Positions 2,473 through 10,892 of a stretch of DNA of 64,000 bases are shown here, in pieces. The translations under genes and the position numbers were made by a program. The stretch spans positions 8,602-72,601 of the forward strand of contig VYCW01000099.1 in NCBI GenBank assembly GCA_009843735.1, in the 5' to 3' direction. Numbering within the stretch: position 1 is the first letter of the stretch; the number at the start of each line of letters is the position of its first letter. Origin of the DNA: Acidimicrobiaceae bacterium. GTDB taxonomy: Bacteria; Actinomycetota; Acidimicrobiia; Acidimicrobiales; Aldehydirespiratoraceae. The notes beneath the pieces were generated by a model. It made no database searches, was not told the DNA's origin, and saw only the letters and a program-made list of their open reading frames with translations.

Positions 2473-5400
2473 TCAGGCGGCGTCCGAGACTCGTTCCGAG
2501 ACCACCATCGAGGATCCGCCCGGCTTCATCGACACCCCCTGCAGGCAGTCGGCAGCCTCCATGGTCCGCTTCTGGTGGGTGACGATCACCAGCTGGGCGT
2601 CGGAGCGGAACTCGTCCACGAGCTTCAGGAAGCGGTGCAGGTTCACGTCGTCCAGAGCGGCCTCCACCTCGTCCATCACGTAGAACGGCGAGGGTCGGCT
2701 GCGGAACACCGCGAACAGGAAGGCCAAGGCGGCCAGCGACCGCTCGCCGCCCGAGAGCAGCGACAGGCGCTTCACGTTCTTTCCCGATGGCTTGGCCGAG
2801 ATCTCAATGCCGGTGTTGAGCAGGTCGTCGGGGTCGGTGAGGGCCAGCCGTCCCTCGCCTCCCGGGAACAGCGACTCGAACAGCACCTCGAAGTTGGCGG
2901 CCACATCGGCGAAGGCCGAGCCGAACACGGTCTTGATCTCGCTGTCGATCGAGCGGATAACCCGGTTGAGGTCCCGCCGGGCGGCGCGGATGTCGTCCAG
3001 CTGACCCTTGAGAAGCTCGTGGCGCTCGTACAGCTCGTCGTACTCGGCCAGGGCCAGAGGATTGACCGGACCCATGATGTCCAGCTCCGCGGCCAAGTGG
3101 TCGGCCCGCTGCTGGGGCTCGATCCCCTCCTCCAGCGCGGGCAGGGTCACCTCCGCGGCGTCGGCGGGAGAGAGGCCGTAGGTGTCCCGCAGCCGCTCGA
3201 CGGCTCCCTGAAGCTGGGTCCGGACCTCGGCCTCCTCTATGTCGCGTCGCCCCTCAGCGGCCCGCAGGGCCTCGTAACGACGGTCGGCGTCGGCTGACCG
3301 CCGGCGCAGGTCGTCGAGCTCGGCCGCCAGTGCCCGAGCCACCTCGGAGTGCTCGCGGCGGATCTGGCGGATCTCCGTGAGGCCTGCCTCCACCGCGGCG
3401 GCTCGCGCCTGCACCGCTCGTCCGAGCGTCTCCAGCACCCTGGACTCGCGCTCCAGTGCGGCCAGGCGGCCCGTCGCAGCCGCCAGGGACGCGTCATGAC
3501 GGTCCAAACGCTCCTGCAACTCACCGAGGCGAGACTCGAGCATCTGCCTCCGCTGCTGGAGCCCGGCGTCGGTAGCGCCTCGCTCGGCGACCCTCTCCGC
3601 CAGCTGGAGGGCGCGCCGGTCTAGTTCGCTGCGAGCCTCCGACGCCTGGCGGCTGCTCTGCCGGGCCATGGCCTCGGCCGCCTCCAATCCGGGAAGGCGG
3701 GACTCGATCTCGGCGGTGCGGGCCACCGACTCATCGAAGCGGCGGGAGGTCTCCGCGAGATGGTCCCGCAGTTCGCTGATGGAGTTGTCGAGGTCGCGCC
3801 GCTCGGCGTCGAGGCGGCTGATGGCCTCGGTCGCCGATGCGGCCCCCGCCTCGGCCGCGGCCAGGCGCCGGCCGAGCTCATCGGCGCGGTCCCTCCTCTC
3901 CGCCAGCTCTGCCCGGGCCTGCTCGCAGGCCGCTCCGGCCCGCTCGCAGGCGTCCAGGGCCGCTCCGGCCTTCTCGGCGGCCTCGGTCAATGCGGGGCCC
4001 AGGCCGGCCGCGGAGTGCACGCCCAGCCTCCAGCCCCGGCCGCTCAGCCGGTCACCGGCCGCGGTCACGGCCACCAGATCGGAGGCACCCGTCCAGACGT
4101 CGGCCGCGCAACGCCAGTCACCCTCCACCAGCACGACGCCGGCGAGCAGCAGGTCGAGCAGCCTCGCCACGTCGGGATCGGAGGCGCGGACCCGGCCCCT
4201 AAGGGGCTCCGAGCGGGTCCCACCGGAGCCCGCGGTGATCGCGGTGGCGGCCGGCGGCTCGGCGGCCCCGCCGATGGCCTCCAGCGCGATCACGGCCGCT
4301 CCGGCGTCGTTGGCCTCCAGGCTGTCGAGCACGCGGCGGGCGGCGGCCACATCGCGCACCACCACCGCGCTGATGGTGTCGCCGACGGCGGCCGCGAACG
4401 CGGCCTCCAGGCCCTCGTCGACCTCCACGAGGTCGCCGAGCAGGCCGAGAGCACCTCCGGACGCGTCCAGCACCTCATCCGGCACCGGGCCCGCGGACTC
4501 CTCGAGGGCCATGGCCAGCGCCTCGCGCCTCGCCGTCCAGTGCCGGAGATCCCCCTCGGCCGAGGTGCTGGCCTGGACCGCGGCCTCCAGCGCGGCGGCG
4601 GCCGCCTCGTGAGCGCGGTCGGCCTCCGCGTGCTCGCCGCGCAGGCCGGCGATCTCGGACTCGCTCCGCCCGAGCTCGAGACGGCGCTGATCGGCTCGAC
4701 CAGCCAGATCCGCCATGCGGTCCTCGGAGTCCTGCAGGCGTTTAGCCAGACGGCTCCGCTCCGACTCGTTGAGGGTGGTCGCCGACCGCAGCGCCGACAG
4801 CTCACCCCGGGCCGCGGCCGCTTCGCTCACCTCTTCGGCGCCGAGCGATCCGGCGTCCCCCCACTCAGCATCGAACGCGCTCCGGTCCGCCTCCAGTCGC
4901 TCCTGCATCTGCGCCAGCCGGCTCCGGTCGCCGGCCGCGGCGGCGTCCGCCGAGGCGACGTCCTGAAGCTCCCGGCGGGACCGGTCCATCTCGTCTCTCA
5001 GTGCGGCGACCAGATCGTGATCGGTGAGGACGGCCCGCTCCCGCTCGAGGCCGCGCTGACGCTCGGCCGCCACCGCAGCCAGCCCGCCCGCCCGGGCTCG
5101 CAGCCCCTCTAGGCGGGCCAGCCGCTCAGAATGGTCATCCAAGCCGTGGCGGGCCAACCGCTGCTCGTTCTCGGCCACGCCTGCACCGACCTCCGCGAGC
5201 TCGGCCTGCAACTGGGCCTTCTCGGCAGCCCGGGCCTCCCCCACATCCTTGTGGGCGCGCAGCCGCTTCCGCAGCTCGGCGATCTCCTGACCGGCCAGGT
5301 ACACCCGCAGGGCCTCCAGCTCCGACAGCAAATCGGCATGGCGCCGGGCCGCCTCAGCCTGCTTCTCCAGGGGCCTCAGCCGTCGCCGGACCTCCGAGGT

Positions 5401-5982
5401 GAGGTCGCTGACGCGGGTAAGGTCGCCGTCGGTGCCCAGCAGGCGGCGCTCGGCCCGCTCCCGCCTCTTGCGGTACTTGAGAACGCCGGCCGCTTCCTCG
5501 ACCACAGCCCGTCGATCGACAGGGCGAGCGCTGAGCACGGCGTCGACCTGGGTCTGGGACACGATCATGTGCTGCTGGCGTCCGACCCCGGTGTCGGAGA
5601 GCAGCTCGACGACGTCGAGGAGCCGGCAGGGGGTGCCGTTCAGCGAGTAGCTCGACTCGCCGTCGCGGAACAGCGTGCGGGTTATGCGCACCTCGCTGGC
5701 CGCCGACGCGAGCATGCCGTCGGAGTTGTCGATCGTCAGCGACACCTCGGCCCTACCCAGGGGCGGCTTCCGGTCGGTGCCCGCGAAGATCACGTCGTCC
5801 ATCCGGGCGGACCGGACCGCGCTCGGTGCTTGAGCGCCGAGGACCCAGGCCACCGCGTCCACGACATTGGACTTGCCGCTGCCGTTGGGGCCGACGACCA
5901 CGGTCACGCCGGGCTCCAGCCGTATGGTGGCCGACTCGGCGAAGGACTTGAAGCCCTTCAGAGTCAGGGTCTTCAGATACAC
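2473..5982 (-). CDS. smc: Chromosome segregation ATPase SMC
   Basis: 1169 aa; MYLKTLTLKGFKSFAESATI, VVGPNGSGKSNVVDAV Walker A, coiled coils, hinge, LSGGERSLAALAFLFAVF signature, MDEVEAALDD Walker B. Confidence 0.97.
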   Translation of the reverse strand: MYLKTLTLKGFKSFAESATIRLEPGVTVVVGPNGSGKSNVVDAVAWVLGAQAPSAVRSARMDDVIFAGTDRKPPLGRAEVSLTIDNSDGMLASAASEVRITRTLFRDGESSYSLNGTPCRLLDVVELLSDTGVGRQQHMIVSQTQVDAVLSARPVDRRAVVEEAAGVLKYRKRRERAERRLLGTDGDLTRVSDLTSEVRRRLRPLEKQAEAARRHADLLSELEALRVYLAGQEIAELRKRLRAHKDVGEARAAEKAQLQAELAEVGAGVAENEQRLARHGLDDHSERLARLEGLRARAGGLAAVAAERQRGLERERAVLTDHDLVAALRDEMDRSRRELQDVASADAAAAGDRSRLAQMQERLEADRSAFDAEWGDAGSLGAEEVSEAAAARGELSALRSATTLNESERSRLAKRLQDSEDRMADLAGRADQRRLELGRSESEIAGLRGEHAEADRAHEAAAAALEAAVQASTSAEGDLRHWTARREALAMALEESAGPVPDEVLDASGGALGLLGDLVEVDEGLEAAFAAAVGDTISAVVVRDVAAARRVLDSLEANDAGAAVIALEAIGGAAEPPAATAITAGSGGTRSEPLRGRVRASDPDVARLLDLLLAGVVLVEGDWRCAADVWTGASDLVAVTAAGDRLSGRGWRLGVHSAAGLGPALTEAAEKAGAALDACERAGAACEQARAELAERRDRADELGRRLAAAEAGAASATEAISRLDAERRDLDNSISELRDHLAETSRRFDESVARTAEIESRLPGLEAAEAMARQSSRQASEARSELDRRALQLAERVAERGATDAGLQQRRQMLESRLGELQERLDRHDASLAAATGRLAALERESRVLETLGRAVQARAAAVEAGLTEIRQIRREHSEVARALAAELDDLRRRSADADRRYEALRAAEGRRDIEEAEVRTQLQGAVERLRDTYGLSPADAAEVTLPALEEGIEPQQRADHLAAELDIMGPVNPLALAEYDELYERHELLKGQLDDIRAARRDLNRVIRSIDSEIKTVFGSAFADVAANFEVLFESLFPGGEGRLALTDPDDLLNTGIEISAKPSGKNVKRLSLLSGGERSLAALAFLFAVFRSRPSPFYVMDEVEAALDDVNLHRFLKLVDEFRSDAQLVIVTHQKRTMEAADCLQGVSMKPGGSSMVVSERVSDAA

Positions 5983-6065: not shown

Positions 6066-6926
6066 TCAGACCTGGGTGTCGCAGTAGTAGGTCCAGACGC
6101 CCCGGAACCGGATGCGCTTGATCGGGGTCCTGGAGCGTTCGCTCAGATCTCCGTGACGGCCCCACACCTTCAGATGGGTGGCGTAGCCGCCCGGCTGACC
6201 GAACGGATCCACGAACGGGCGGTCCGGAACCGAGGTGCCGCGGTACTTCACGGCGTCGTGCATCGTGCCGACCAGCGACCGGTGCAGGCGCCGGATCTCC
6301 TGGGTGGACAGCGTGCTGCACACCCGGTCGTAGCGCAGCCCGGCCTCGAAGAGGATCTCGTCGGCGTAGATGTCGCCGACGCCCACCACGAACGTGTCGT
6401 CGGTCAGCAGAGCCTTGAGCTTGTCGCTTCGCTGCAGCAGCATCCGACCCATCTCGGTCCAGGAGATGGGGGTGGCAACGGGGTCGAGGCCGTAGCCGGC
6501 CAACTCCGGCACGGCCGCGTCGAGGTCGTCGTCGGACACCACGAACAGTTGCCCGGTTCCCTCGGTGTCGACGAAGCGAAGCTGGCCGTACTGCGTGAAC
6601 GAGATCACGACCTCGGTGCCGGCGACCCTGGGGTTCTTGTTGGCGTTGCGGCGGGGTGAGCCCGACGAGCCCAGCGACAGCACCAGCAGCTGCTCCGTGC
6701 TTAGCTCGATCACGAGATACAGGCCCACCCGCCTGACGTCGACGATCTTCGCTCCCTCCAGCTGGGACGTGAACGCCTTGCGGGTGTGGTAACGGCGCAG
6801 GCACTTCATGCTGGCGGCCTCGGCCGCCTTGACCTTGCGGCCGATTATCTCCCGCTCGAGGTCCCGCCTGATGGTCTCCACCTCGGGAAGCTCGAAGTCG
6901 AGAGTGTGGGCGCGGGAGGAGCTCAT
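6066..6926 (-). CDS. Fpg/Nei (MutM) family homologue with degenerate active site
   Basis: FELPEVETIRRDLE, VVGVGDIYADEILFEAGL, SLSTQEIRRL and FGQPGGY match the Fpg fold; N-terminal Pro, Lys57-equivalent and zinc-finger Cys residues are not conserved. Located between rnc and smc. Confidence 0.9.
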   Translation of the reverse strand: MSSSRAHTLDFELPEVETIRRDLEREIIGRKVKAAEAASMKCLRRYHTRKAFTSQLEGAKIVDVRRVGLYLVIELSTEQLLVLSLGSSGSPRRNANKNPRVAGTEVVISFTQYGQLRFVDTEGTGQLFVVSDDDLDAAVPELAGYGLDPVATPISWTEMGRMLLQRSDKLKALLTDDTFVVGVGDIYADEILFEAGLRYDRVCSTLSTQEIRRLHRSLVGTMHDAVKYRGTSVPDRPFVDPFGQPGGYATHLKVWGRHGDLSERSRTPIKRIRFRGVWTYYCDTQV

Positions 6927-6960
6927 GGTCGGACCTCGACTGGTGAACGGGATTCGAGAA

Positions 6961-7668
6961 TCATGACGGGAACTTGGCCGTGAGGGAGGCGTAGGCGACC
7001 TCGGCCGCCCGCTGCTCGGCGTCCTTCTTCGTGCTGCCCGCGCCCACTCCGGCCTCGTCGCCGGCCCACACCTCGGCGCGGAACCGACGATGGTGCGCCG
7101 GGCCGCTGGTGGTCACTTCGTAGGAGGGGGGATCCAGACCGAGGCGGGCAGCCAGCTCCTGCAGCCTGGTCTTGAAGTCGGCGTGCCCGGGAGAGCTCGC
7201 CACTGCGTCCAGCCGGTCGCCGAGCAGCCGTCCGACCGCGTCGTCTGCCGCGCCGATGCCCCCATCGAGATAGACCGCACCGATTACGGCCTCCACCGCG
7301 TCGGCCAGGATCGACGGCTTGGCCCGGCCACCGGAGACGTGCTCCCCCCGGCCGAGGCGCAACTGCTCGCCCAGCCCCACCGACCGGCCGACCTCGGCCA
7401 GGGTGGCCGAGTTCACGAGCGAGGCGCGGGCCTTGGCCAGATCGCCCTCGGCCCAGTCCCCGAAGCGCTCGTACAGCCTCCCGGTCACGACCAGGCTCAG
7501 CACGGCGTCACCCAGGAACTCCAGCCGCTCGTTCGAGGAGGACCCGGAGTGCTCCGCACACCAGGATCGGTGCGTCAGGGCCAACTCCAGCAGGGCAGGG
7601 TCGTTGAATCGATGACCCAGCCGGTCCATGAGCACCGAGGCGCCCGCCGGGGCGGTCTGGACCGTCAA
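6961..7668 (-). CDS. rnc: Ribonuclease III
   Basis: 235 aa; LALTHRSW, NERLEFLGDAVL signature, ILADAVEAVIGAVYLD, C-terminal dsRBD. Confidence 0.97.
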   Translation of the reverse strand: MTVQTAPAGASVLMDRLGHRFNDPALLELALTHRSWCAEHSGSSSNERLEFLGDAVLSLVVTGRLYERFGDWAEGDLAKARASLVNSATLAEVGRSVGLGEQLRLGRGEHVSGGRAKPSILADAVEAVIGAVYLDGGIGAADDAVGRLLGDRLDAVASSPGHADFKTRLQELAARLGLDPPSYEVTTSGPAHHRRFRAEVWAGDEAGVGAGSTKKDAEQRAAEVAYASLTAKFPS

Positions 7669-8041: not shown

Positions 8042-9028
8042 CTATCGGCGGGCGACGGCCGCGATGTGTTCCACCATGCCCGCGGCGACCATCTCGCGGG
8101 CCACCCCTATGGCGTTCATGATTGCAGCCGCGCTGCTGGCACCGTGAGAGATCACGCAAACGCCCCGTACTCCGAGCAGCAGCGCCCCCCCGACTCCATC
8201 GGGGTGAAGCTCCCGCGCCATCTCGTCGAGGGCGGGGGCCAGCATCTGTCCCGCCTCCCGCGAGATGTCGTCGGTGTCGATGGCCACCAGCATCCGGCCG
8301 AACAGCGCCCGCAGAGCACCCTCGAGGGCCTTGAGGGTCACGTTCCCGGTGAACCCGTCGGTCACCACCACGTCGATGTCGGGCGTCATGATGTCGCGAC
8401 CCTCGACGTTGCCGACCCACTCCGCACCGACATCTCTGGCCCAGCCGCCGTCGGCGAGCCGCTTGAACACCGCCTTGGTGAAGTCGTTGCCCTTGCCGGC
8501 CTCCTCGCCGATCGACAGCAGGCCGACGCGGGGGCGCTCGATGCCGAAGCGGTCGCGGGCATAGACGGAGCCCATCCGGGCGAACTGCACGAGCCATTCG
8601 GGACGGCACTCGGCGTTGGCGCCCGAGTCGAGCATCGTTGTGGGGCTGGACCCGGGAGTGGGGATCGGCGTTGCGATAGCGGGACGGGTGATTCCCCGAA
8701 TCCGCCCCATGCGCAACAGCGCCGAGCCCATCGCAGCACCCGTGTTCCCGGCGGACACCATGGCCGAGGCCCGCCCGTCGCGGACAGCCTCAGCCGCCCT
8801 CACCAGCGACGAGTCCTTCATCGTGCGGACGCTCGAGCCCGGCTCGGCGTCCATGGGAATCACCTCGGAGGCTTCGATCACCTCCAGCCCGCCGGTGTCG
8901 CCGATCTCGTCCGGTCGCCCCACCAGCACCACCGGGATCCCGAGCTCGTCCGCGGCGCGCCGGGCCCCGGCCACAATCTCGGCGGGGGCCCGGTCGCCCC
9001 CCATCGCGTCAACGGCTACCGGTTCCAT
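8042..9028 (-). CDS. plsX: Phosphate acyltransferase PlsX
   Basis: 328 aa; VAVDAMGGDRAPAEIV, GNTGAAM, ATPIPT, GVRGVCVISHGAS. Confidence 0.96.
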   Translation of the reverse strand: MEPVAVDAMGGDRAPAEIVAGARRAADELGIPVVLVGRPDEIGDTGGLEVIEASEVIPMDAEPGSSVRTMKDSSLVRAAEAVRDGRASAMVSAGNTGAAMGSALLRMGRIRGITRPAIATPIPTPGSSPTTMLDSGANAECRPEWLVQFARMGSVYARDRFGIERPRVGLLSIGEEAGKGNDFTKAVFKRLADGGWARDVGAEWVGNVEGRDIMTPDIDVVVTDGFTGNVTLKALEGALRALFGRMLVAIDTDDISREAGQMLAPALDEMARELHPDGVGGALLLGVRGVCVISHGASSAAAIMNAIGVAREMVAAGMVEHIAAVARR

Positions 9029-9822: not shown

Positions 9823-10410
9823 TCAGCCCACGTCCTGATCGAACACGTCGTCGTCGACTGGAGGTCTCGGTGCGGGCGCCTCGGGCCTGGGCAACTGGGT
9901 GTCCTGCAGCCGCTGGCGTCCCGTCGTCACCGTGTTGAGGGTCTTGTGCAGCATCGCCTCGAAGGTGGCCAGGCGCTGGTCGCACCAGTCCTCGGTCTCC
10001 AGCTTCATGCGGCCGGCCCGCTCCTCGGCCTCCGACAATGTGCGCCGGGCCCGCAGCTCCGCGGCCTTGACCACCTCGCTGCGCTGCACCATCTGCTCGG
10101 CCCGGGCCCGGGCTGCGGCGATTATCTCCTCGCCTTCCCGCTGGGTGCGCAGACGCATGTCGTCACGTTCCTTGAGCATCCAGCGAGCGGCCCGCAACTC
10201 CTCGGGGAGTGCTGTGAACGCCCTCTGGAGGATCCCCAGCAGCTCCTCACCATTGATCATCACCGAGGTGGAGAACGGCATGGGCCGCGACCGCTCCACG
10301 ATGCGGATGGCCTGCCCCAGCAGCTGCTCGACGGCCAGCCGGCGGGCCTCCGAGGAACTCTCGGCCTGGCCGGAGCCGGACTGCGGGACGGGACTTCCGG
10401 CGGAGCTCAT
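9823..10410 (-). CDS. DivIVA/SepIVA-like coiled-coil protein
   Basis: 195 aa, coiled coil with Glu/Arg-rich heptads (LRARRTLSEAEERAGRMKLETEDW); locus between coaD and DUF177-rpmF. Confidence 0.75.
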   Translation of the reverse strand: MSSAGSPVPQSGSGQAESSSEARRLAVEQLLGQAIRIVERSRPMPFSTSVMINGEELLGILQRAFTALPEELRAARWMLKERDDMRLRTQREGEEIIAAARARAEQMVQRSEVVKAAELRARRTLSEAEERAGRMKLETEDWCDQRLATFEAMLHKTLNTVTTGRQRLQDTQLPRPEAPAPRPPVDDDVFDQDVG

Positions 10411-10892
10411 CTCTCCTGCTCAAGACGGCTCACCAGCCGCTCACGCACCGGCGCGGGCACCATCGACGACACATCCCCGCCGAGGCGAACAACCTCGCGG
10501 ATCAGCTTCGAGGCGACGAACGACCGCTTGCTGGCCGACGGGATGAAGACCGTCTGCACGCCCGCGAGTGCGTGGTTCATCTGCGCCATCTGCAGTTCGT
10601 TCTCGAAGTCCGACACTGCCCGCAGCCCCTTCACGATGAAGTCGGCGTCGAGGTCGCGGGCCAGACTGACGACCAGGTTGGAGAACATCGCGACCGAGAC
10701 GTTGGGGAGGTGAGCGCAGCACTCCTTGATCATCTGCTCGCGCTCGTCGAGGCTGAACATGCCCTCCCCCTTCTGGGGATTCCGCATGGCCGCGACGACG
10801 ACCTCGTCGAACAGTCCGGAGATGGTCTCGATGATTTCGAGATGGCCGTAGTGGATCGGGTCGAAGGATCCGGGGTACAGCACACGGGTCAC
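10407..10892 (-). CDS. coaD: Pantetheine-phosphate adenylyltransferase
   Basis: GTG start; VLYPGSFDPIHYGHLEII, VKGLRAVSDFENELQMAQMN, SSKLIREVV-like motif. Confidence 0.97.
   Translation of the reverse strand: MTRVLYPGSFDPIHYGHLEIIETISGLFDEVVVAAMRNPQKGEGMFSLDEREQMIKECCAHLPNVSVAMFSNLVVSLARDLDADFIVKGLRAVSDFENELQMAQMNHALAGVQTVFIPSASKRSFVASKLIREVVRLGGDVSSMVPAPVRERLVSRLEQER

Follow-up and report, generated by a model that had tools for sequence, protein, structure and literature searches.

A catalytically degenerate Fpg/MutM homologue between rnc and smc in Acidimicrobiia, probably retained for a non-glycosylase role

The gene between rnc and smc in an Acidimicrobiaceae genome encodes a full-length Fpg/MutM homologue that lacks key catalytic and DNA-contact residues and is held by purifying selection. 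Judging from its sequence and those of its relatives, this protein is probably an Fpg pseudoenzyme retained for a role other than base excision, with the binding of a partner, either a protein or a nucleoprotein, as the probable function. Fpg is a textbook housekeeping repair enzyme, and we know of no established second job for it. The repeated loss of the chemistry with retention of the protein, at one locus and with a spare Fpg present, provides a natural separation-of-function experiment and makes testable a second role of this classic enzyme that would otherwise go unseen. Homology annotation will name the dead copies glycosylases, and for many Acidimicrobiia and related actinobacterial genomes this gives a wrong account of repair capacity at the locus.

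Gene organization and loss of active-site residues

The window, the whole stretch of 64,000 nucleotides that was analysed, carries the gene in the following surroundings:

6066..6926, minus strand: dead Fpg (pseudo-Fpg) ORF, 286 aa, ATG at 6926
6934..6937, minus strand: GAGG, Shine-Dalgarno-like, read in the sequence 7 nt 5' of the ATG
6961..7668, minus strand: rnc, ribonuclease III (TIGR02191), directly upstream of the dead fpg with a 34 bp gap
2473..5982, minus strand: smc (SMC_prok_B, TIGR02168), directly downstream with an 83 bp gap
8042..9028, minus strand: plsX, further upstream in the same gene run
10407..10892, minus strand: coaD, further upstream of the dead fpg

The motifs of this ORF read MSSSRAHTLDFELPEVET, RRVGLYL, SLGSSGSP, DTEGTGQ, VGDIYADE and SERSR...YYCDTQV. 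All motif changes on which the first-pass annotation had based its description of a dead glycosylase are present, at these positions:

6894..6896, minus strand: Phe at codon 11, inside the chain, at the position of the Pro nucleophile (P1)
6720..6722, minus strand: Leu at codon 69, replacing the beta-hairpin Lys (K57 in E. coli, K60 in B. stearothermophilus)
6666..6677, minus strand: SLGS, codons 84-87, for HLGM (phosphate-contact His, void-filling Met)
6555..6563, minus strand: EGT, codons 122-124, for RTF/RRF (void-filling Arg, wedge Phe)
6372..6374, minus strand: Asp at codon 185, for the phosphate-contact Asn (N168/N174)
6069..6143, minus strand: former zinc finger, codons 262-286

The protein has no N-terminal proline nucleophile, and Phe11 is internal after a 10-residue extension. 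An alternative start restoring an N-terminal Pro was considered and rejected, as there is no further start codon from M1 up to F11. The DNA-phosphate contacts Lys57, His70, Asn168 and Arg258 are replaced by Leu69, Ser84, Asp185 and Val277, the last of these at the position of the finger Arg (R258/R264). In the former zinc finger two Cys have become Ser (262 and 265) and one more Cys is lost; its beta strands are still predicted. Two glutamates survive, the catalytic one (E2 in E. coli Fpg) as E12 and E5 as E15, a point absent from the first-pass annotation. With its key catalytic residues gone, we infer that the protein would be inactive in vitro.

Family membership and predicted fold

The window protein is a genuine Fpg homologue over its whole length, scoring 77.5 bits against Pfam Fapy_DNA_glyco (cut-off 25.5) and 63.4 bits against H2TH (cut-off 34.7). 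It falls below the cut-offs of two models of active Fpg, with 178.4 against 203.3 for the TIGR00577 equivalog and 186.8 against 212 for NF002211. An AlphaFold model built from a 46-sequence alignment has a mean pLDDT of 92.9 and a pTM of 0.89, and its best PDB matches are MutM/Fpg structures, the leading ones at TM 0.85-0.91. According to this confident model the full Fpg fold is kept, as had been surmised from the surviving motifs.

Distribution and purifying selection

A match at E 1e-50 or better was found in 50 of the 51 genomes of the family; the sole genome without one, G319, is an assembly that is 81% complete and spread over about 590 contigs. A scan of GTDB genomes returned 80 named loci, nearly all from MAGs titled Acidimicrobiales or Acidimicrobiia and a few under broader or conflicting titles (e.g. 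Actinomycetota, Acidobacteria), and the gene is inactivated at every one of them. Named loci read to their end share a C-terminal motif of the type (L/M)SxR(S/A/N)R...CxxQV, and in the dead clade the motif GxLSPRSRxPI..WTYYCxTQV is near-invariant. Motif states were read in more than 120 orthologues, and the same inactivation extends over a large clade spanning many Acidimicrobiia families. The strict arrangement with rnc upstream and smc downstream holds at 64 of the 80 named loci; at the remaining 16 there is a contig end, smc is more distant or unseen in the stretch, or match and rnc overlap. In a few dead-clade genomes extra genes separate the dead fpg from smc (L088:6829-8496, L103:6860-7696), strict adjacency thus being sometimes lost, and L103 has a TetR-like ORF on the other strand between the two genes.

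Across the dead pairs tested in the main clade, dN/dS is 0.02-0.18, and two independent dead lineages give 0.036 (L239/L252) and 0.15-0.19 (L233/L253/L234); values for intact pairs are 0.03-0.09. At about 0.1, not 1, these figures bear out the earlier proposal of selective retention rather than decay. A check for an intact locus copy in close relatives found none, all family orthologues with motifs read being dead. Recent decay in one MAG was rejected, since the same inactivation is seen in the family orthologues read and in MAGs from independent projects. It is furthermore highly improbable that the gene is decaying and owes its open frame to the operon alone: several catalytic motifs are gone and a redundant genome would free the enzyme to decay, but the low dN/dS over many pairs, the open frame with its near-universal retention in the family and the near-invariant C-terminal motif of the dead clade all argue against it. 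A retained fold, missing catalytic residues and purifying selection over long times, the marks of a pseudoenzyme, are all seen here.

Because rnc is directly followed by smc without Fpg at seven loci (L331, L333, L335, L336, L341, L343 and L345) from distant families in the class, f31 and f40, the slot gene can be lost and is not universally needed, a point that counts against the proposed retained role. No full-scoring Fpg was found in the f31/f40 genomes lacking the locus gene, or in an f29 genome. In this f29 genome an unrelated ORF, asparaginase-II-like by eye, occupies the place of fpg between rnc and smc (L339:2185-3120).

Comparison of dead and intact locus copies

Dead copies, 58 sequences after dereplication, were compared with 39 intact Fpgs that likewise lie at the rnc-smc locus. 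P1, K57, H70, M73, R108, F110, N168 and R258 are invariant in the 39 intact copies and variable in the 58 dead ones, and the first two zinc cysteines have become Ser in 57 and 49 of the dead sequences, respectively. A three-way comparison that included second Fpgs from elsewhere in the genomes identified 25 positions lost in the dead set, with nearly all known catalytic and DNA-contact sites among them. From the intact copies to the dead clade the median net charge falls from +8 (pI 9.3) through +5 to -2 (pI 6.2); the window protein has shifted less far, being mildly basic (net +3, pI 8.7).

These losses bear on the suggestion, made in the first-pass annotation, that the protein still binds DNA lesions or structures. 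A sensor that binds DNA without cutting would be in line with the retained H2TH fold, the mildly basic character of the window protein and the K155 equivalent (K171 in the window protein), which is invariant in the main dead clade. However, all four residues that contact phosphates (K57, H70, N168, R258) and those that intercalate (M73, R108, F110) are lost and free to vary, and the clade median has turned acidic. Because the DNA contacts in particular have been lost, a role as a DNA-lesion sensor is disfavoured, and lesion binding by the dead Fpg appears unlikely. In dead copies that branch early the zinc finger is still present, as is P1 in half of them, but K57 and most DNA contacts have disappeared; because of this, DNA gripping seems to have eroded before the nucleophile. 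The same order appears in L272, an independent lineage that has kept P1 and K57 and lost the DNA contacts.

At the active site, all 58 dereplicated sequences of the main dead clade retain E2 and E5 (E12 and E15). This invariance runs counter to the pseudoenzyme reading in that it would fit some residual active-site use. It would also suit a new enzyme whose E2 and E5 serve a different reaction or act on a different substrate, RNA or a nucleoside for instance, and a role in RNA base chemistry has been proposed for the Fpg-related NFACT-N (PMC6514570). In dead copies of other classes, however, E2 is also lost in six of nine cases, being replaced by H, Y, Q, A or G. Because E2 itself is replaced there, a shared E2-based reaction is unlikely in those classes, and we consider a new enzymatic activity very unlikely overall.

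A total of 29 sites show conservation among locus copies, whether intact or dead, that the second Fpgs do not share. We do not claim a partner surface from them; because most of these sites are not conserved in deeper locus Fpgs, they do not form a convincing one.

A second Fpg elsewhere in the genome

The genome of the window (G000; 84.6% complete, 140 contigs) encodes three further H2TH proteins. The search for an intact fpg paralogue, proposed in the earlier annotation as a check, led to a complete Fpg on contig C40 (L001/L223), which has P1, K57, HLGM, RRF, N168 and CxxC..CxxC and scores 238.6-241.7 bits with TIGR00577. The other two of the three, Fpg/Nei-like paralogues on G000:C72 (L002) and G000:C133 (L004), look Nei-like; the motifs of this pair are PEIIEVE (Nei2-like), and PELPEVAAH with an unusual HLMQAG and no RxF loop.

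Scored with TIGR00577 at its curated cut-off, a second full-scoring Fpg is present in none of the 39 class genomes with an intact locus copy and in 38 of the 41 with a dead one (Fisher p about 1e-19, kinship ignored). The corresponding counts in other classes are 0 of 11 and 7 of 9, the other two dead-locus genomes having partial or broken second copies, and over all sampled genomes 0 of 50 intact-locus and 45 of 50 dead-locus genomes have one. In a kinship-controlled independent-pairs sign test, which has too few pairs for significance, about four of five pairs agree, none disagrees and one is a tie (p 0.125); the coupling of the dead copy to a second Fpg is consistent, not independently significant. 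Those second Fpgs that were read carry active-site motifs. Most of them, including those of other classes, fall into one clade; those of G118 and G106, where inactivation was independent, form another, and that of G016 stands alone.

This almost perfect co-occurrence could indicate that the dead copy works like a prozyme, binding the active second Fpg and regulating it, and dead paralogues that activate a live partner are known elsewhere (PMC5201418). Against this, the dead copy is not always accompanied by an active paralogue: no other Fpg over the cut-off was found in G169, G211 and G223, nor in the f5 genomes G235, G102, G267 and G055, which are small (1.4-1.7 Mb). The second Fpgs, moreover, come from at least two unrelated clades. 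Because seven genomes hold the dead copy alone, a mere helper of the second Fpg is disfavoured, and we regard the prozyme explanation as quite unlikely. Genomes with only the dead copy may have no 8-oxoG excision by Fpg at all. Either the second Fpg was gained before the inactivation, or an old pair was resolved with one member staying active; the asymmetry is the same under both histories, in that it is the rnc-smc gene that is retained when dead.

Recurrence of the inactivation

Inactivation of Fpg at the rnc locus is recurrent across the phylum; this recurrence and the coupling to a second intact Fpg lay outside what the first-pass annotation could see. In a tree calculated without the motif columns, the dead copies of the class form one group plus one further independent loss. 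Denser sampling of family f5 resolved two loss lineages, g22 (G106, G118) and a g14 set (G235, G388, G102, G267, G055), with G360 intermediate. The dead g14 lineage, which is without any second Fpg, has long branches that could reflect slow decay. Intact locus Fpgs of f5 g14 (e.g. L263:1501-2397) are about 299 aa long, with an insertion of ~20 residues between the N-terminal domain and the H2TH.

Among the 20 orthologues read outside the class but within the phylum, each of them adjacent to rnc, 11 are intact and 9 dead. The joint tree, again excluding the motif columns, has 8 state changes, at least 5 of them forced by starred branches; the trees are quick searches with many weak branches, and the exact number of changes is uncertain. 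A single ancient inactivation was rejected by the AU test (p-AU 0.0008 for a single origin).

Proposed role and relation to known systems

In the proposed mechanism, the gene product would keep the entire Fpg/MutM fold but have no glycosylase/AP-lyase chemistry, and the side chains with which Fpg grips, kinks and everts damaged DNA have been lost. The glycosylase duty would have passed to a second, distantly related Fpg gene (on C40 here), and purifying selection would hold the rnc-smc copy for a catalysis-free job. Most likely it is to bind a partner that is a protein or a nucleoprotein, by analogy with the reused NFACT-N domain, and such binding would be the most economical remaining reading. 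Gene order may hint at partners in the RNase III or SMC pathways, the neighbouring SMC having been named as a possible partner in the first-pass annotation. We put forward more tentatively, at somewhat below even chances, that the Fpg linked to rnc in Actinomycetota has an old second function other than that of a glycosylase, active forms included, and that its active site and DNA-binding surface have eroded at least five times, whenever glycosylase duty was carried by another Fpg or dispensed with.

The NFACT-N domain of RqcH/Rqc2/NEMF is related to Fpg and acts in ribosome quality control, not base excision (PMC6514570). It belongs to a larger protein of several domains, and its sequence is far removed from that of the window protein, which matches Pfam NFACT_N at a non-significant E of 0.33.

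The fold and family are already known; in the open-licence literature we found no description of a conserved dead rnc-linked Fpg or of its recurrence, which appear to be new. NEIL1 and plant FPG/MMH are still active glycosylases with the nucleophile and the finger Arg, unlike the window protein, which has neither. They resemble it in a beta-hairpin without zinc-binding cysteines, the zincless finger (PMC9266487, PMC3188539).

Fpg/MutM itself (TIGR00577, NF002211; B. stearothermophilus MutM 1R2Y and others) is a bifunctional 8-oxoG/FapyG DNA glycosylase. The window protein shares its full-length fold, the H2TH, the ELPEVE start of the first helix, E2, E5 and the K155 equivalent, and its genomic position is that of active Fpgs linked to rnc, M. 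tuberculosis Fpg1 (PMC2734929) among them. In contrast to Fpg/MutM, it has no P1, K57, H70, M73, R108, F110, N168 or R258 and no full set of zinc cysteines. M. tuberculosis Fpg2 (Rv0944) is likewise a degraded actinobacterial Fpg paralogue, described as being without its N-terminal part (PMC2734929). Rv0944 is truncated and lies at another locus, whereas the window protein is full length, has lost its residues by substitution and is found at rnc-smc. A full-length version of Fpg2 is present in M. smegmatis.
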